Assembly: GCF_016641735.1 (NCBI RefSeq)
Contig: NZ_JAEDAO010000001.1
Coordinates: forward strand, 372,001-436,000
Source: Ramlibacter algicola
Lineage (GTDB): Bacteria; Pseudomonadota; Gammaproteobacteria; Burkholderiales; Burkholderiaceae_C
Direction of reading: 5' to 3'
Length of the DNA stretch: 64,000 bases
A model generated the notes under the pieces. That model was not told the DNA's origin. It ran no database searches and saw only the letters and a list, made by a program, of their open reading frames with translations. This document shows, piece after piece, positions 34,753 to 47,468 of the stretch. The position numbers were made by a program, and so were the translations under genes. Position 1 is the first letter of the stretch; each line of letters starts with the position of its first letter.

Positions 34753-38611
<3,859 letters not shown>

Positions 38612-38633
38612 AGTTGCAGCTGCCAGTTACAGA

Positions 38634-40628
38634 GTGGCACGCTCGCGCGCTTATTACAGCAGTGACCTCGCGACATTCCTCGATGAGGAGAACACGCGGA
38701 TTCTGGGCACGTTGTCACGCGCCGCGAGCGATGACGGTCCAATAGAGCCCGCCCAACTGCTCTCTTGGGAACAGCAGATTCGCTGTCTCACGTCCGCGCT
38801 CAGGTCTCACCCTGCCTCAACTGGCGGGGTTTTTTTTGAGTACGCGGTTCCGAGGCTTGGAAGGCGTATTGATGTCGTGTTGGTTCTTGGCGGAGTTGTC
38901 TTCGTCATCGAATTCAAGGTGGGCGCGAAGCAATACACTGCCGCCGCACTGGATCAGGTTTGGGACTACGCGCTTGACCTGAAGAACTTCCATGAGACAT
39001 CGCACGACAAGGTGCTATGCCCGGTGCTTGTTGCGACAGACGCTCCTGCACGGCCTATCAGGACTGCAACAAGCGTCAGAGACGATGGCGTCCTCGTTCC
39101 GATCTGCTGTAACTCTGCCCAGTTGGATGCTGTCCTGGATCATGTTCTCCAATCCAGACCGCAATCGCTCGTCGTGGCGCGAGACTGGGATGCTGGTCGC
39201 TATGCCCCAACGCCAAGCATCATTGAAGCGGCATTAGCGCTTTACTCTGGCCATGGCGTCGCGGAGATCTCGCGGTTCGGCGCCGAGGAGAGAAACCTAC
39301 GAGAGACTTCTAGCGCCGTTGATGCCTTGATCGAACAATGCCGCGAATCGCGACAGAAGGCGATTTGCTTTGTCACGGGCGTGCCCGGTGCGGGGAAAAC
39401 ACTGGTTGGTTTGAACGTCGCGGCCACGCACGCGCAGCAAGGCGACACTCATTCTGTTTTCCTGTCTGGCAACGGGCCCCTTGTTGCTGTTCTGCGAGAG
39501 GCGCTCACGAGAGATCAGGTCCGTCGCACGCGCGCGCGCGGAGAGAAGTTGACTAAGTCTGCTGCGCTGACAACCGTCAAGTCCTTCATCCAGAACGTCC
39601 ACCACTTCCGCGACGAATACTTGCGCGACCAGCGACCGCCCGTTGACCACGTAGCTGTGTTCGATGAGGCTCAACGCGCATGGAATTTGACGCAAACTGC
39701 AGCCTTCATGCAGAGGAAGCGCGGCCAGGCCGGGTTCGATATGTCCGAGCCGGAGTACCTAATTTCGTGCATGGACCGGCACCCTGATTGGGCAGTGATC
39801 GTCTGTCTGGTTGGAGGCGGGCAGGAGATCAATACGGGTGAGGCGGGCATTCGCGGCTGGCTCGAGGCGCTTTCACGCCGGTTCCCCCACTGGAAGGTGC
39901 ACTTGCCTGCCGAACTGCGGGATAGCGAATACCAGGTTGCGGATTTCTTGCGGCAGGCGCCCCCGACCTTTTCTGTTGTCAATGACGAGCGCCTGCACCT
40001 CGCAGTGTCCATGCGCTCATTCCGGGCGCAACACGTCTCGACGCTCGTGAAGCAAGTGCTTGATCTCGAGCGACAAGAGGCGGTGAGGACTCTCGTTAGA
40101 GTGCTTCCGAGCTATCCCATCGTTCTGACCCGCGACGTCAATCTCGGCAAGGAGTGGGTTCGCTCCCAAGCTCGAGGGAACGAACGCTACGGTCTCATGG
40201 TCTCGTCCCAGGCGGAGCGACTAAGGCCGCATGCGATTCACGTGCGCGCACCGATGGATCCGGTCCACTGGTTTTTGGACGGGAAGGAGGACGTGCGGTC
40301 GTCCTACTACCTCGAAGACGTGGCAACAGAGTTTCACGTCCAAGGCTTGGAGTTGGACTGGGGCTGTGTTGTTTGGGACGGCGACTTCAGGTTTGCAGGG
40401 TCAGCCTGGACGCACCACGCCTTCGTGGGAAGCAAGTGGCAGAACATCAACAGCCCTGAACGGCGAACGTTTCAGAAGAACGCCTATCGAGTCCTTCTGA
40501 CCCGAGCGCGGCAGGGGGTGGCCATTGTTGTTCCAACTGGCACCGCCAGCGATGCAACGCGAGACCCGAAGTTCTACGACTCCACCTTCGAATACCTTAG
40601 GCAGATCGGTATACCTGTCCTTCGGTAA
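38634..40628 (+). CDS. Predicted PD-(D/E)XK nuclease fused to DUF2075/Schlafen group-3-like helicase
   Basis: 664 residues if read from GTG 38634 (RAYYSSDLATFL is the conserved start; an in-frame ATG at 38580 inside gyrB is the alternative). The N-terminal domain contains RRIDVV (Asp80) and VIEFKVG (Glu93, Lys95), spaced as in PD-(D/E)XK nucleases. The DUF2075 helicase core follows, with Walker A GVPGAGKT (249-256), VFDEAQRAW (DEAQ box, 342-350), GGGQEINTGEAGI and a C-terminal NAYRVLLTRARQGVAIVVP resembling SF1 motif VI. Base composition is clearly less GC-rich than gyrB, suggesting transfer. Family members often occur in variable loci; a nucleic-acid-degrading or defence role is inferred, not shown. 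Confidence 0.8.
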   Translation: MARSRAYYSSDLATFLDEENTRILGTLSRAASDDGPIEPAQLLSWEQQIRCLTSALRSHPASTGGVFFEYAVPRLGRRIDVVLVLGGVVFVIEFKVGAKQYTAAALDQVWDYALDLKNFHETSHDKVLCPVLVATDAPARPIRTATSVRDDGVLVPICCNSAQLDAVLDHVLQSRPQSLVVARDWDAGRYAPTPSIIEAALALYSGHGVAEISRFGAEERNLRETSSAVDALIEQCRESRQKAICFVTGVPGAGKTLVGLNVAATHAQQGDTHSVFLSGNGPLVAVLREALTRDQVRRTRARGEKLTKSAALTTVKSFIQNVHHFRDEYLRDQRPPVDHVAVFDEAQRAWNLTQTAAFMQRKRGQAGFDMSEPEYLISCMDRHPDWAVIVCLVGGGQEINTGEAGIRGWLEALSRRFPHWKVHLPAELRDSEYQVADFLRQAPPTFSVVNDERLHLAVSMRSFRAQHVSTLVKQVLDLERQEAVRTLVRVLPSYPIVLTRDVNLGKEWVRSQARGNERYGLMVSSQAERLRPHAIHVRAPMDPVHWFLDGKEDVRSSYYLEDVATEFHVQGLELDWGCVVWDGDFRFAGSAWTHHAFVGSKWQNINSPERRTFQKNAYRVLLTRARQGVAIVVPTGTASDATRDPKFYDSTFEYLRQIGIPVLR

Positions 40629-41261
40629 TCAGCAGCGCAACGCGAATTGACGATCTCGGTGCTTCTTGCGTTCGGAAGCAAGCCAGTCCTGCATGGCCGC
40701 CGATTGAGGCTGACGGGCTTGAGCATCGATACTGAGTACAGCCTGTTCCAGCGCAGCACACTCCGCGCGGCGATCAATGCTCGCATCTCGATGATCGGAA
40801 ACATTCGCTGCGGCCGCGGCGCCGCTGTGAGCCTGCGGTGGAGGCTGGGTTTGCGTCAACGTGCTCTGAACTTGACGAACCGGGTCTGCGACGTTGGGCT
40901 CTTGCAGGGTGACCACGCTGGTTTGCGCGCCGGGTTCGCAAGGACCATCAGAGAACGTCACCCGACCACCAAGGATGCACTTCACCACTTCTCTGCGCGT
41001 TGCGCGCGGCGGGGTTCTCACACTTTGAGAGTGGACCGACGGCGTAGGCAGCGGAGTTGGAGTGGACGCAGGCGGGGCGGGGGCTTGGTGCGAGCGACCG
41101 ACAACAGGATATCGATCGAAGGCGAGCCACACGAGGGCAAGAACCGCCAGGGTGATGAGGACTACGCCCCACCCGGAATTTTCGGGTGGAGTGAAGACAG
41201 ATCGCAAATCTGCATTTCGATCGAACTTTTCCGCTTTGCGCAGTGCCACCGCGTTGATCAC
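40629..41261 (-). CDS. Hypothetical membrane-anchored protein with DUF4124-like motif
   Basis: 210 residues from a GTG at 41261 (start uncertain; a second GTG lies 12 bases downstream and the frame is open upstream). A cytoplasmic N-terminus of about 35 residues precedes one membrane segment (WGVVLITLAVLALVWLAF). A Pro/Thr-rich linker follows, then VKCILGGRVTFSDGPCEPGAQTSVV, which resembles the core of DUF4124-type proteins, where two cysteines flank a short beta unit. The C-terminal part is charged (ECAALEQAVLSIDAQARQ ... RKKHRDRQF). Its stop abuts the helicase stop on the opposite strand with no gap. Function unknown. Confidence 0.65.
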   Translation of the reverse strand: MINAVALRKAEKFDRNADLRSVFTPPENSGWGVVLITLAVLALVWLAFDRYPVVGRSHQAPAPPASTPTPLPTPSVHSQSVRTPPRATRREVVKCILGGRVTFSDGPCEPGAQTSVVTLQEPNVADPVRQVQSTLTQTQPPPQAHSGAAAAANVSDHRDASIDRRAECAALEQAVLSIDAQARQPQSAAMQDWLASERKKHRDRQFALRC

Positions 41262-41294
41262 ATGAAACGAGCCAATGCACAGTGTAGTCAGCAC

Positions 41295-42527: not shown

Positions 42528-42992
42528 CTACAGGAAGCGCTCCAACAACTTCCGCGAATGTCGGTCCAGTCCAGATCGGTTCGCGATCCGAAAGTTGATC
42601 CCTTCCCCACTCGCAATCAACAGCGCCCCGTCCCCAAGCCGCCGAATATCTTCTTCCCCTTTCAGCACGAACTGCGTCGCCCCGCGATCGGTCACCACGC
42701 TCCACGTGCTGGGCGTCGAGAAGCTGGACACCGCCTCGATGCGCTGCACCGTCGGCACGAATTCGCGCCCGGCCAGCTCCTCTTCGATCAAGGCGCGGAC
42801 CTCACCAGCAAGTGACCCGAGGTGCTCCACCCAAGCCACCTCCCGCCCCTCGCCACTCACCAGCGACACGCCTTCCTCTGGCGCAGCCAGCGGAAACGCC
42901 CGCACCGGCACCACGCCCTCGTGCACCGCGCCGTCCGCCAGCGTCAGCACCAGCCGGCCGAATGAACTCCGTTCAAGCTTGAACATCGTCAT
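42528..42992 (-). CDS. Cyanophycin metabolism-associated DUF1854 family protein
   Basis: 154-residue soluble protein of DUF1854, a family that in Betaproteobacteria accompanies cyanophycin synthetases and the ABC transporter next door. Visible landmarks are RSSFGRLVLTLADG, VPVRAFPLAAPEEGVSLVSGEG and a C-terminal TDRGATQFVLKGEEDIRRL ... LIASGEGINFRI. Biochemical role unknown. Its ATG overlaps the stop of the ABC transporter gene (ATGA), so the two are coupled. Confidence 0.85.
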   Translation of the reverse strand: MTMFKLERSSFGRLVLTLADGAVHEGVVPVRAFPLAAPEEGVSLVSGEGREVAWVEHLGSLAGEVRALIEEELAGREFVPTVQRIEAVSSFSTPSTWSVVTDRGATQFVLKGEEDIRRLGDGALLIASGEGINFRIANRSGLDRHSRKLLERFL

Positions 42993-45211
42993 TCCCCCGC
43001 CGGATGCGCTGCATGCACCGGCGCCGGAAGTTGCAGCTGGTCTTCCTCATCGACCTGACGTGCCTGCGCTTCATACAGCCGCCAATACGCGCTTTGCTTG
43101 GCGATCAACTCGTCGTGCGGCCCCACCTCCACCACCCGCCCCCGATCCATCACCACCAACCGATCCGCCTTGCGCAGCGTGGACAGGCGGTGTGCGATGG
43201 CAATGGTGGTGCGGCCCTGCACCAGGTTGTCCAGCGCCTTCTGGATCTCCTTCTCCGTTTCCGTGTCGACGCTGGAGGTGGCTTCGTCCAGGATCAGGAT
43301 GCGCGGGTCGATCAGCAGCGCGCGGGCGATCGAGATGCGCTGGCGCTCGCCGCCCGACAGGCCCTGGCCGCGTTCGCCGACCATGGAGTCGTAGCCCAGG
43401 GGCAGGCGCAGGATGAACTCGTGCGCGTGCGCGGCGCGCGCGGCGGCGACGATCTCGGCGCGGGTGGCGTCAGGGCGGCCGTAGGCGATGTTCTCGGCGA
43501 TGGTGCCGAAGAACAGGAAGGGCTCCTGAAGCACCAGGCCGATGTGGCGCCGGTAGTCGGCCACGCCGAAGCGCCGGATGTCGGTGCCGTCGACCTTGAT
43601 GGCGCCGTCGGTCACGTCGTAGAAGCGGCAGATCAGGTTGACCAGCGTGCTCTTGCCCGATCCGCTGTGGCCCACCAGGCCGATCATTTCGCCGGGGCGG
43701 ATCGACAGGTCCAGGCCGCGGATCACGCTGCGGTTGCCGTAGCGGAAGCCCAGGCCCTGCATGTCGATCGCGCCTCGTAGCGATTCGATCTTCACTGGCT
43801 GCGCCGGCTCGGGCACGTTGGACACGTGGTCCAGGATGTCGAAGATGCGCTTGGCGCCGGCGGCTGCCTTCTGCGTGACCGAGACGATGCGGCTCATCGA
43901 GTCCAGCCGCGTGTAGAAGCGTCCGATGTACGCGATGAAGGCCGTGAGCACGCCCACCGTGATCTCGCTCTTGCTCACCAGCCAGATGCCGAAGGCCCAG
44001 ACCACCAGCAGGCCGACGTCGGTCAGCAGCGACACGGTCGGCGAGAACAGGCTCCAGGTCTTATTGAGCTTGTCGTTGACGACCAGGTTGGCCTGGTTGG
44101 CCTCGCGGAAGCGCTGCGCCTCGCGCCGCTCCTGCGCGAAGGCCTTGACCACGCGGATGCCCGGGATGGTGTCGGCCAGCACGCTGGTCACGTCGCTCCA
44201 GACTCGGTCGATCTTCTCGAAGCCGGTGCGCAGGCGGTCGCGCACGGCGTGGATCATCCAGGCGATGAAGGGCAGCGGCAGCAGCGTCGCCAGCGCCAGC
44301 CAGGGGTTGATCGAGAACAGGATGGCCGCCGTCATGGCGAACATCAGGACGTCGGTGGCGAAGTCCAGCGCGTGTAGCGACAGGAAGACCGAGATGCGGT
44401 CGGTCTCGGAGCCGATGCGCGCCACCAGGTCGCCGGTGCGCTTGCCGCCGAAGTAGTCCAGCGACAGCTGCAGCAGGTGCTCGAAGGCCGTGGTGCGCAG
44501 GTCGGCCGCGATGCGCTCGGACACCAGGGCCAGCAGCCAGGTGCGCGCCCAGCCCAGGCTCCACGCCAGCAGCGCCGAGCCGAGCAGTCCGGCCAGCAGC
44601 AGCAGCACGTAGCCGGCGTCGATGCGCTGGCCGTTCTGGAACGGGATCAGCACCTTGTCCATCAGCGGGATGGTCAGGTAGGGCGGCACCAGCGTCGCGG
44701 CGGTGGACGCGAGCGTCAGCCCGAAGCCGATGGCCAGCTGCTTGCGGTACGGGCGGGCGAAGCGGGCCAGGCGCAGCAGGACCCAGGTCGAGGGCGGGCG
44801 GGTGTCCTCGTCGGCCTCGTCCTCGCTGGCGGCCTCCTCCGGCGCGGGCTCGCCCGATTGCAGGCGCTCGAAACGGGCGACGAAGGCCAGCACCGCGCGC
44901 TGCTGCGCCAGCGTGAAGCGCCACAAAGCCACGCGCCGCGTGCGATCCAGCAACTCCAGCGTGCCAATTCCCGCATGGTCGCCGTGGCGCAGCACCATGC
45001 CGTCAGCCAGTTGCCAGTCAGCCCACTGGCCGTCCACGCAAGCTAGCAGCCGCTTCTCGGTCAGGACCAACGCTCCGGTGTTGAAGTGCATCGCCGCGTC
45101 GATGTCAACCTCCAGGGTGGCCAAGACGTTCTCGTTGCTGTCGAGTTCCGTGTCGAGCGCCTTGCGCCAGTCCGGGCCCGGCACTGCGACGGCCGGAGAA
45201 GTAGATTGCAT
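42989..45211 (-). CDS. ABC transporter, fused permease/ATPase, cyanophycin-locus type
   Basis: 740-residue half-transporter. An N-terminal extra domain (about 1-130), with LTEKRLLACVDGQWADWQL, looks like a PH-type beta domain. An exporter-type six-helix membrane domain (about 150-440) and a nucleotide-binding domain follow: Walker A GHSGSGKST, Q-loop VLQEPFLF, signature LSGGERQR, Walker B ILILDEAT and the H-loop IAHRLST. It resembles lipid or drug exporters (MsbA-like) but belongs to the group adjoining cphA genes. It is divergent from cphA' with about 75 bp between starts. Substrate unknown; a link to cyanophycin or its dipeptides is inferred from location only. Confidence 0.88.
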   Translation of the reverse strand: MQSTSPAVAVPGPDWRKALDTELDSNENVLATLEVDIDAAMHFNTGALVLTEKRLLACVDGQWADWQLADGMVLRHGDHAGIGTLELLDRTRRVALWRFTLAQQRAVLAFVARFERLQSGEPAPEEAASEDEADEDTRPPSTWVLLRLARFARPYRKQLAIGFGLTLASTAATLVPPYLTIPLMDKVLIPFQNGQRIDAGYVLLLLAGLLGSALLAWSLGWARTWLLALVSERIAADLRTTAFEHLLQLSLDYFGGKRTGDLVARIGSETDRISVFLSLHALDFATDVLMFAMTAAILFSINPWLALATLLPLPFIAWMIHAVRDRLRTGFEKIDRVWSDVTSVLADTIPGIRVVKAFAQERREAQRFREANQANLVVNDKLNKTWSLFSPTVSLLTDVGLLVVWAFGIWLVSKSEITVGVLTAFIAYIGRFYTRLDSMSRIVSVTQKAAAGAKRIFDILDHVSNVPEPAQPVKIESLRGAIDMQGLGFRYGNRSVIRGLDLSIRPGEMIGLVGHSGSGKSTLVNLICRFYDVTDGAIKVDGTDIRRFGVADYRRHIGLVLQEPFLFFGTIAENIAYGRPDATRAEIVAAARAAHAHEFILRLPLGYDSMVGERGQGLSGGERQRISIARALLIDPRILILDEATSSVDTETEKEIQKALDNLVQGRTTIAIAHRLSTLRKADRLVVMDRGRVVEVGPHDELIAKQSAYWRLYEAQARQVDEEDQLQLPAPVHAAHPAGE

Positions 45212-45285
45212 GCGGCGGTGGTGAGGAAACACTGGGCCCGTGCCCTGGTTGGGACGCGGATTTTCGCCCAAGCCGGCAACTGCCC

Positions 45286-47468
45286 ATGAGCAAGCACAAC
45301 AACATCCGACTGCTGCGCGTCAACTACCTGCGCGGCCCCAACCTCTGGACCTACCGGCCGGTGCTCGAAGCCTGGCTGGACCTCGGCGAGCTGGAAGACT
45401 GGCCGTCGAACAAGCTCCCCGGGTTCAACGATCGGCTCACCGCGCTGCTGCCCGCGCTCATCGAACACCATTGCGGCGTCGGCGAGCGCGGCGGCTTCCT
45501 GCAGCGGCTGCAGGAAGGCACCTGGGCCGGCCATGTGCTGGAACACGTGGTCATCGAGCTGCTGAACCTGGCCGGCATGCCTACCGGCTTCGGCCAGACG
45601 CGCAGCACCTCGCAGCGCGGCGTCTACCGCATGGTGTTCCGCGCCCGTGACGAGCAGGTCGCGCGCAGTGCGCTGGCGCAGGGCCACCGCCTGCTCATGG
45701 CGGCCATCAACGGCGAATCCTTCGATGTGGCCCAGGCTGTCGGCAAGATCCGCGAGCAGGTCGACGACTCGTACCTCGGCCCAGCACCGCCGCCATCGTG
45801 GCCGCGGCGACCGACCGGCGCATCCCGCACATCCGCCTGAACGACGGCAACCTGGTGCAGCTGGGGCACGGCGCCCGCCAGCGCCGCATCTGGACCGCCG
45901 AGACCGACCGCACCAGCGCCATCGCCCAGGGCATCGCCGGCGACAAGGACCTGACCAAGCGCCTGATCGCCGGCTGCGGCGTCCCGGTGCCGGAGGGCCG
46001 CGCCGTTGCCTCACCGGCCGAGGCCTGGGAGGCGGCGCAGGACATCGGGCTGCCCGTCGTCGTCAAGCCCAGCGACGGCAACCACGGCCGCGGCGTGATG
46101 CTGGACCTGCGCACCCAGGCGGATGTCGAAGCCGCCTTCGCGATCGCCGAGCCCCATGGCAGCGAAGTCCTGGTCGAACGCTCCATCCCGGGTGACGAGC
46201 ACCGGCTGCTGGTGGTCGCCGGCAAGGTGGTGGCGGCGGCGCGTGGCGAGACCGCCTGGGTCACCGCCGACGGCCGCTCGACCGTGCGCCAGCTGGTCGA
46301 CGCGCAGATCAACAGCGACCCGCGCCGCGGCACCACCGAAGACTACCCGCTGAACCGGCTGGTGCTCGAAGAAGACGAGGCCATCCTGGGGGACCTGACG
46401 CGGCAAGGCCTCACGCCCGATGCGGTGCCCGAGGCGGGCCGCAAGGTGCTGATCCAGCGCAATGGCAACGTCGCGATCGACTGCACCGACCAGGTCCACC
46501 CCGAAGTCGAACACGTGGTCGCCCTGGCCGCGCGCATCGTCGGGCTGGACATTGCCGGCATCGACCTCGTGGCGCAGGACATCTCGCGACCGCTGCACGA
46601 GCAGGGCGGTGCGATCGTCGAAGTCAACGCCGGCCCCGGCCTGCTGGCGCACCTGAAGCCCGCGGTGGGCCAGCCGCGCCCGGTGGGCCGCGCCATCGTC
46701 GACGCGCTGTTCCCCATGGCCGACGAACGCGCACACGCCGGCCGCATCCCCATCGTCGGCGTCGCCGGCACGCGCGGCACCACCCGCATCGCGCAGCTGG
46801 TCGCCTGGCTCGCGCAGTTGCGCGGCCTGCGCGTGGGCCTGGCCTGTGCCGACGGTCTCTTCCTCGATCGCCGCTGCCTGGCACCTGGCGACGCGCGCCG
46901 CTTCGACGTGGCGCACCGCCTGCTGGTCAACCGCAACGTGAAGGCCGCCGTGTTCGAGAACGATGCCCGCTGCATCCTGCGCGACGGCCTGGCCTACGAC
47001 CGCTGCACGGTCGGCGTGGTCACCGATTTCGATGGTTCCGAGGCGCTGGCCGACTTCGACGTGCAATCGCCGGAGCAGATGGCCAAGGTGCTGCGAACGC
47101 AGGTCGACGTGGTGCTGGACGACGGCGTCGCCGTGCTGAACGCGGCGGACGAGCGCGTCGCGGCGCTGGGCGAGTTCTGCGACGGCGAGGTCATTCTCTA
47201 CGCGGCCGATGCGCGCACGCCTGCACTGCTGGCGCATCGCGACAAGGGCGCGCGCGGCGGCCGTGTCGTGTTCCTGCAGGACGGCCGGCCGGTGCTGGCC
47301 ACCGGCAGCGCCGAGGCGCGACTGGCCGTGCTGTCGCCCGCCGCACGGGGCGACATGGACGACGACACCTTGCTTGCCGTCGTCGCCACCGCCTGGGCGC
47401 TGGACATCCCGCGCGACCTCATCACCGCCGGCCTCGAGACTTTCGACGCCCACAACGCCGCAGCCTGA
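45286..47468 (+). pseudogene. cphA': Cyanophycin synthetase-like CphA', interrupted by an apparent one-base frameshift
   Basis: The reading frame from ATG 45286 encodes the CphA N-terminal domain and then shifts near 45781. The ATP-grasp part (DRRIPHIRLNDG, VVVKPSDGNHGRGV) continues in another frame to a TGA at 47466. The break is in GGCCC-AGCACC, where the paralogous cphA has GGCCCGAGCACG, so one base appears missing. Restoring it gives one protein of about 727 residues. The C-terminal Mur-ligase-like domain lacks a true P-loop: GTRGTT replaces GTNGKT. Betaproteobacteria commonly carry such a shorter cphA' beside cphA. True mutation or base-calling error cannot be decided here. Confidence 0.8.

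Follow-up and report, generated by a model that had tools for sequence, protein, structure and literature searches.

A gene for a 664-amino-acid nuclease–helicase lies directly behind gyrB in a stretch of 64,000 nucleotides of Ramlibacter algicola DNA (contig NZ_JAEDAO010000001.1, positions 372,001 to 436,000; hereafter the window). We consider it probable that this gene is a horizontally acquired anti-phage nuclease–helicase that attacks phage DNA, probably without a fixed partner. A defence role had been proposed in a first-pass annotation made from the sequence alone, and the genomic context makes it likely: the protein matches the phage defence candidate family PDC-S41, its active sites are conserved, the family is spread sporadically, and its members have restriction-type neighbours and no constant partner. 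The biochemistry of the protein is predicted with fair confidence.

The gene and its family

The gene is real, intact and well conserved (table 1). The longest version of its frame begins at an ATG at position 38544, within gyrB. Since the aligned start codon, usually ATG, is found within about three codons of GTG 38634 in most homologues, this GTG is the best choice of start. The first-pass annotation had described a 664-amino-acid protein with D80, E93, K95, Walker A, DEAQ and LLTRAR, all of which were found where it had placed them, in DNA that it had noted as lower in GC than gyrB. The gene has a GC content of 0.591 and a GC content at third codon positions (GC3) of 0.67, compared with 0.660 and 0.93 for gyrB and a GC3 of 0.95 for dnaA and dnaN. 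It is foreign-looking, and its horizontal acquisition is part of the reading given above. In profile searches, it is the sole match to PF09848 and the sole match to PDC-S41 in the source genome.

Table 1. Features of the PDC-S41 locus, numbered from the first nucleotide of the window.
Feature	Position	Strand	Basis or remark
PDC-S41 nuclease–helicase gene, 664 amino acids	38634..40628	+	GTG start; open reading frame, PADLOC PDLC05014, PF09848
Predicted N-terminal PD-(D/E)XK nuclease domain, approximately residues 1–190	38634..39203	+	AlphaFold model and PD-(D/E)XK-type matches
Predicted nuclease active site E69, D80, E93-x-K95, Q108-x3-Y112	38838..38969	+	Alignment conservation
Superfamily 1 (SF1) helicase, Schlafen group 3 type, residues 192–664	39207..40628	+	
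Walker A, GVPGAGKT, residues 249–256	39378..39401	+	Alignment of 96 sequences
Motif II, DEAQR, residues 344–348	39663..39677	+	Alignment of 96 sequences
Motif VI, LLTRAR, residues 621–626	40494..40511	+	Alignment of 96 sequences
gyrB (context)	35990..38611, start approximate	+	Stop codon 22 nt before the PDC-S41 gene
Convergent frame, no family match	40629..41270	-	Atypical GC3; GTG start possible at 41261

Residues 4–663 of the protein align with positions 2–653 of the 657 of PADLOC model PDLC05014 (PDC-S41), with 913 bits and E = 2e-275; PADLOC's own cut-off for this family is not displayed, and the match was judged to be full-length by bits and coverage. The protein is a member of PDC-S41 on this evidence, and only its position behind gyrB was found to set the present copy apart. 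In Pfam, PF09848 (Schlafen group 3 helicase) matches residues 242–634 (E = 2.4e-76), and the best matches in NCBIfam (E = 0.048) and PHROGs (E = 0.013) are both at the P-loop. PDC stands for phage defence candidate, according to the available part of PMC11514479. No paper using the term PDC-S41 was found in a literature search; among the titles listed for DUF2075, none was on defence and the term never stood alongside 'defense'. PDC-S41 is thus already catalogued as a defence candidate, apparently an uncharacterised one. The earlier description of the protein as 'not a standard named system' has to be amended for the PADLOC entry; in the comparisons that follow, the protein does not qualify as Nhi, Gabija or a Schlafen proper.

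Nhi (single-gene nuclease–helicase immunity) and Hna, as far as the accessible parts of their descriptions go, similarly combine nuclease and helicase domains in one protein in a defence context. The Nhi model (PADLOC PDLC02372) covers only the Walker A stretch of the present protein (residues 240–279, E = 0.0029). None of the four PADLOC matches is to a model named Hna, and Hna is likened by domain description, not by sequence comparison. GajB of Gabija also has an SF1 UvrD-type motor, but the present protein carries its nuclease fused in the same chain; the GajB models match residues 603–638 only (17 bits, E = 0.00047), and there is no adjacent GajA, gyrB lying upstream and a frame without PADLOC match on the other side. 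Membership of the Schlafen family proper was rejected, as there is no Schlafen core RNase domain among the 15 Pfam matches up to E = 1 and the N-terminus is modelled as PD-(D/E)XK. The group III Schlafens (SLFN11, SLFN14, SLFN5) differ in having this core domain, and their linker sits where the present protein carries the conserved PD-(D/E)XK residues. The available parts of four papers (PMC8789055, PMC9482658, PMC12499436, PMC11615386) describe this linker and never call it nuclease-like. If the Schlafen link is true, it would account for the domain that is understood least in a human family of antiviral proteins.

Read-through from gyrB may drive expression of the gene. This is plausible because the gap is only 22 nt, the strand is the same and no terminator-like site was found between the two genes. 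No promoter of its own was found where 0.5 was expected, which in a genome of high GC is weak evidence. Inside the nuclease-coding part, at 38809–38838, there is a terminator-like hairpin with eight consecutive T after it; it may be a chance occurrence, being the one terminator-like site found against 2.8 expected by chance.

Predicted nuclease and helicase domains

The residues E69, D80, E93, K95, Q108 and Y112 are each conserved in 96 of 96 aligned homologues. The same six are kept in all 10 rows of a second alignment, six of which are divergent proteins outside the 96 (L167, L170, L172, L201, L030_2 and L059_11), so that the nuclease motif is beyond chance. The AlphaFold model of residues 1–200 has a predicted local distance difference test score (pLDDT) of 92.6, and its structural matches are of the PD-(D/E)XK type, including many DNA enzymes (Hjc, EndoMS, McrBC, FokI). 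On the basis of the modelled core fold and of the D, ExK and QxxxY residues, residues 1–190 are predicted with fair confidence to be a PD-(D/E)XK nuclease of the QxxxY type. A search of Protein Data Bank (PDB) sequences with the nuclease profile gave no match up to E = 10. The whole profile gives 12 matches, none better than E = 0.025; SLFN5 and SLFN11 are among them (E = 1.1–1.6), over the Walker A region.

The C-terminal part belongs to the SF1 helicases of Schlafen group 3 type by its PF09848 match and by the presence of Walker A, DExQ and motif VI. Seven of the eight Walker A positions are invariant in the 96 sequences, and A253 is kept in at least 90 per cent; DEAQR is invariant, as is the TRAR of motif VI, the preceding LL being kept in at least 90 per cent. 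Matches of the helicase include UvrD, RecD2 and Pif1, and also RecD and Dna2. When the whole model is searched with Foldseek, human SLFN11 and SLFN14 come first. These results support the kinship of the helicase half with Schlafen group 3 that the first-pass annotation had noted, and the proposed nuclease–helicase fusion agrees with the structural model, also as regards its N-terminal fold.

Sporadic distribution and the site behind gyrB

The distribution of the PDC-S41 family is sporadic. There are matches in eight of 60 genomes of the genus, 21 of 299 of the family and 23 of 399 of the order. The genus is Ramlibacter in the wide sense: for example, L002 is a Ramlibacter (G753), L003 a Comamonadaceae bacterium (G752) and L004 a Caenimonas (G742). 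In the phylum, the PADLOC model matches in 21 of 398 genomes, 12 of them above 350 bits and nine at about 70 bits or fewer. Of 14 control genomes, one has a match to the PADLOC model; the broader PF09848 matches in 11, in six of them above its cut-off. A housekeeping helicase is a poor fit to such sporadic occurrence. The gene is likewise not a universal one behind gyrB with ordinary codon use, the other possibility considered with the first-pass annotation, since 52 of 60 genus genomes have no match and its GC3 is atypical.

Genome contigs were scanned with a pattern, which yielded 548 relatives; the top 80, with 55–67 per cent identity, were retained. These 80 come from Bacteroidota, Chloroflexota, Planctomycetota, Omnitrophota, candidate phyla and others. 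In a quickly built LG+G4 tree with 97 rows, Bacteroidota needs eight changes, at least five of them forced by starred branches, and Pseudomonadota two; 17 groups need 24 changes in all, the minimum possible being 16. The phyla are nonetheless clustered far beyond shuffled labels. A tree that mixes phyla and yet clusters them indicates transfer between phyla over a partly vertical background. Relatives were found in four of 72,556 plasmid records, in one of 50,697 phage records and, 11 in number, on viral contigs.

Many copies in this bacterial family lie close to gyrB. All eight genus positives could be evaluated: seven are within 10 kb downstream of gyrB on the same strand (gaps of 26, 64, 66, 1040, 1075, 2638 and 3279 nt). 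The remaining one, a 35 per cent relative, is also on the same strand, 15.7 kb away. Elsewhere in the family, 16 of 19 positives entered the evaluation; two had no gyrB match at threshold, and a 71-amino-acid fragment was left out. Six are within 10 kb, all on the same strand (22, 54, 225, 380, 1424 and 7616 nt), one is at 25 kb, four are far away and five are on another contig. In the remainder of the order, the evaluation covered 18 of 21 (one has no gyrB match and two are fragments): two are within 10 kb, both on the opposite strand, four are far and 12 are on another contig, a category that in fragmented genomes may conceal linkage. Random placement would put about 0.2 per cent per genome within 10 kb of gyrB; binomial values overstate the link, because the genomes are related.

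On the tree, the gyrB-linked copies include the starred clade of the source gene; L116, also linked, falls within another starred clade, the other members of which (Rhodoferax and relatives) have no gyrB in their available flanks. Further linked lineages branch at unresolved forks: L138, L123, L122 with L120, and L045 with L062. Together with the two opposite-strand cases, these lineages imply at least three and perhaps more than six separate placements near gyrB, with vertical persistence for the rest.

The site behind gyrB in the genus is variable and rich in defence genes, but not reserved for them. Gene content differs between most of 32 post-gyrB loci (30 from the genus, two others), and because of this variation a clean empty site is not demonstrable. 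The genus loci (L133–L162) contain 97 open reading frames (ORFs) of at least 150 amino acids starting in the first 4.3 kb, PDC-S41 excluded. They include C5-methyltransferases (five), DUF2357 (four), PDDEXK_7 (four), HNH_2 (three), Fic (three), Mrr (two) and HipA (two), besides HATPase (six), response regulators (five), NnrU (four) and dehydrogenases (three). PADLOC families matched number 144 for these 97 ORFs and 31 for 88 ORFs of at least 130 amino acids beyond 9.5 kb (90 less two of L152, one of them PDC-S41-like). The site just after gyrB is a place to seek more defence genes in this bacterial family. A single search of the literature found no relevant title on a gyrB hotspot. There is no tRNA gene in the window, and around the island the search for mobile-element borders found nothing but short repeats in two copies.

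For the convergent frame 40629–41270 (GC3 0.60), Pfam gives nothing better than E = 0.21, and NCBIfam and PADLOC give nothing up to E = 1; its PHROGs match, phrog_7936 of unknown function, is below the cut-off (E = 0.035). Similar frames beyond the gene occur at L138 (31 per cent over 189 residues), L003 (33 per cent over 137) and L002 (61 per cent over 44), and there is no match at E = 1e-4 in the 29 post-gyrB loci without a PDC-S41 gene. We lean towards regarding it as a passenger, not a partner. Past the island, at 42528–47468, lie what we take to be an ABC-transporter-like gene and cyanophycin-synthetase-like frames. These have only weak ABC matches among the 32 post-gyrB loci of relatives, so the region to the right of gyrB appears to be rearranged here.

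Neighbours of the relatives and proposed function

No constant partner was found at the 80 loci: even the commonest neighbour families are present in 10 of them at most, and one of the two largest consists of generic ABC ATPases. A tblastn census of genes within 1.5 kb covered 146 loci, from which duplicates were removed by hand and some may remain (L063 and L176 are alike). It gave HNH (15), NUDIX (five), NERD (four), Fic (three), MazG (two), a paralogue of about 800 amino acids (two) and two small proteins (seven and three). The 149 nearest ORFs of 79 loci (L031 was dropped as a copy of L030) match HNH_2 (eight), NERD (four), NUDIX, Fic and Peptidase_S24 (three each), and HipA, C5-methylase, Vsr and also LysR (two each) in Pfam; NERD-UvrD genes are among the neighbours. 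PADLOC families matched number 236 for these ORFs, compared with 86 for a set of 101 at distances above 6.5 kb; since models overlap, the figures do not count proteins. At L167 (333–9959), a 39 per cent relative directly follows MzaC, MzaD, MzaE and a C5-methyltransferase. At L170 (740–13810), a 32 per cent relative stands inside a type I restriction–modification operon, preceded by two unmatched frames and by one that is partly type I specificity-like, and ahead of HsdM, HsdM and HsdR. Both loci are viral by contig label only. An HsdM following the L170 relative bears an N-terminal ADP_ribosyl_GH match.

The module of one or two genes proposed in the first-pass annotation probably consists of the single gene; frame 40629–41270, which has no family match above cut-off, is a doubtful second member. 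The HNH neighbours raise another possibility, namely an optional two-part restriction-like system of nuclease–helicase and linked HNH_2, with the HNH-less copies being orphans or having another partner. All 15 HNH genes are on the same strand as the PDC-S41 gene, upstream or downstream and most within 150 nt, and in L002, L004 and L148 the HNH sits between gyrB and the PDC-S41 gene. However, about nine in ten census loci have no HNH neighbour, although tblastn would miss a second or distant HNH family; gene order varies, and the present locus adjoins only gyrB and a frame without family match. We regard such a system as rather unlikely.

An anti-phage nuclease–helicase acting by itself would work as follows. 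SF1 motors require a single strand or an end for loading. The motor may load on phage DNA at exposed single strands, ends, or replication or recombination intermediates; its movement, driven by ATP, would bring the nuclease to cut or degrade that DNA, much as proposed for Nhi, Hna and other nuclease–helicase systems. According to the available parts of the reports, phage single-stranded DNA-binding protein (SSB) elicits a response from Nhi, Hna, Hachiman and AbpAB; AbpAB additionally reacts when replication is inhibited or when RecB or RecC is lost. By analogy, SSB would be the first candidate trigger for PDC-S41. The family is a compact, predicted one-gene nuclease–helicase present in many phyla, for which residues to mutate and a candidate optional HNH partner are now named.

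An accessory helicase–nuclease of DNA repair or recombination, a mobile RecB- or Dna2-like enzyme, is less probable still. Its helicase matches (UvrD, RecD2, Pif1, RecD, Dna2) would suit such a role, and the NUDIX and MazG-like neighbours could suggest nucleotide hygiene, but most genomes of the genus lack the gene and its contexts are rich in restriction genes. Some PD-(D/E)XK relatives such as Card1 also cut RNA, and the helicase half and the Foldseek ranking recall the Schlafens, but a Schlafen-like action on RNA that halts translation in infected cells is very improbable, given the lack of a core domain among the Pfam matches up to E = 1 and a nuclease fold whose matches include many DNA enzymes.

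Several further neighbours were observed. In two Omnitrophota loci, L030 (817–3228) and L059 (7566–9965), the paralogue of about 800 amino acids precedes the PDC-S41 gene by 33 nt and is itself preceded, further out, by a MazG-like gene. The paralogue has the PD-(D/E)XK residues and a PF09848 helicase, and in L030 also a C-terminal LexA-like Peptidase_S24 domain, which hints at a DNA-damage sensor. The small protein adjoining the PDC-S41 gene in seven of the 146 loci (L005, L009, L013, L036, L040, L079, L219) has a YLYRDAGNYK-like start and is about 85–117 amino acids long in six of them; the one copy scanned (L009) has no Pfam match. On plasmid NZ_CP101463.1 (L201, 1–13758), a 26.5 per cent relative annotated as 'DNA/RNA helicase domain-containing protein' adjoins McrC and AAA ATPase genes; also close by are HNH and methyltransferase genes.
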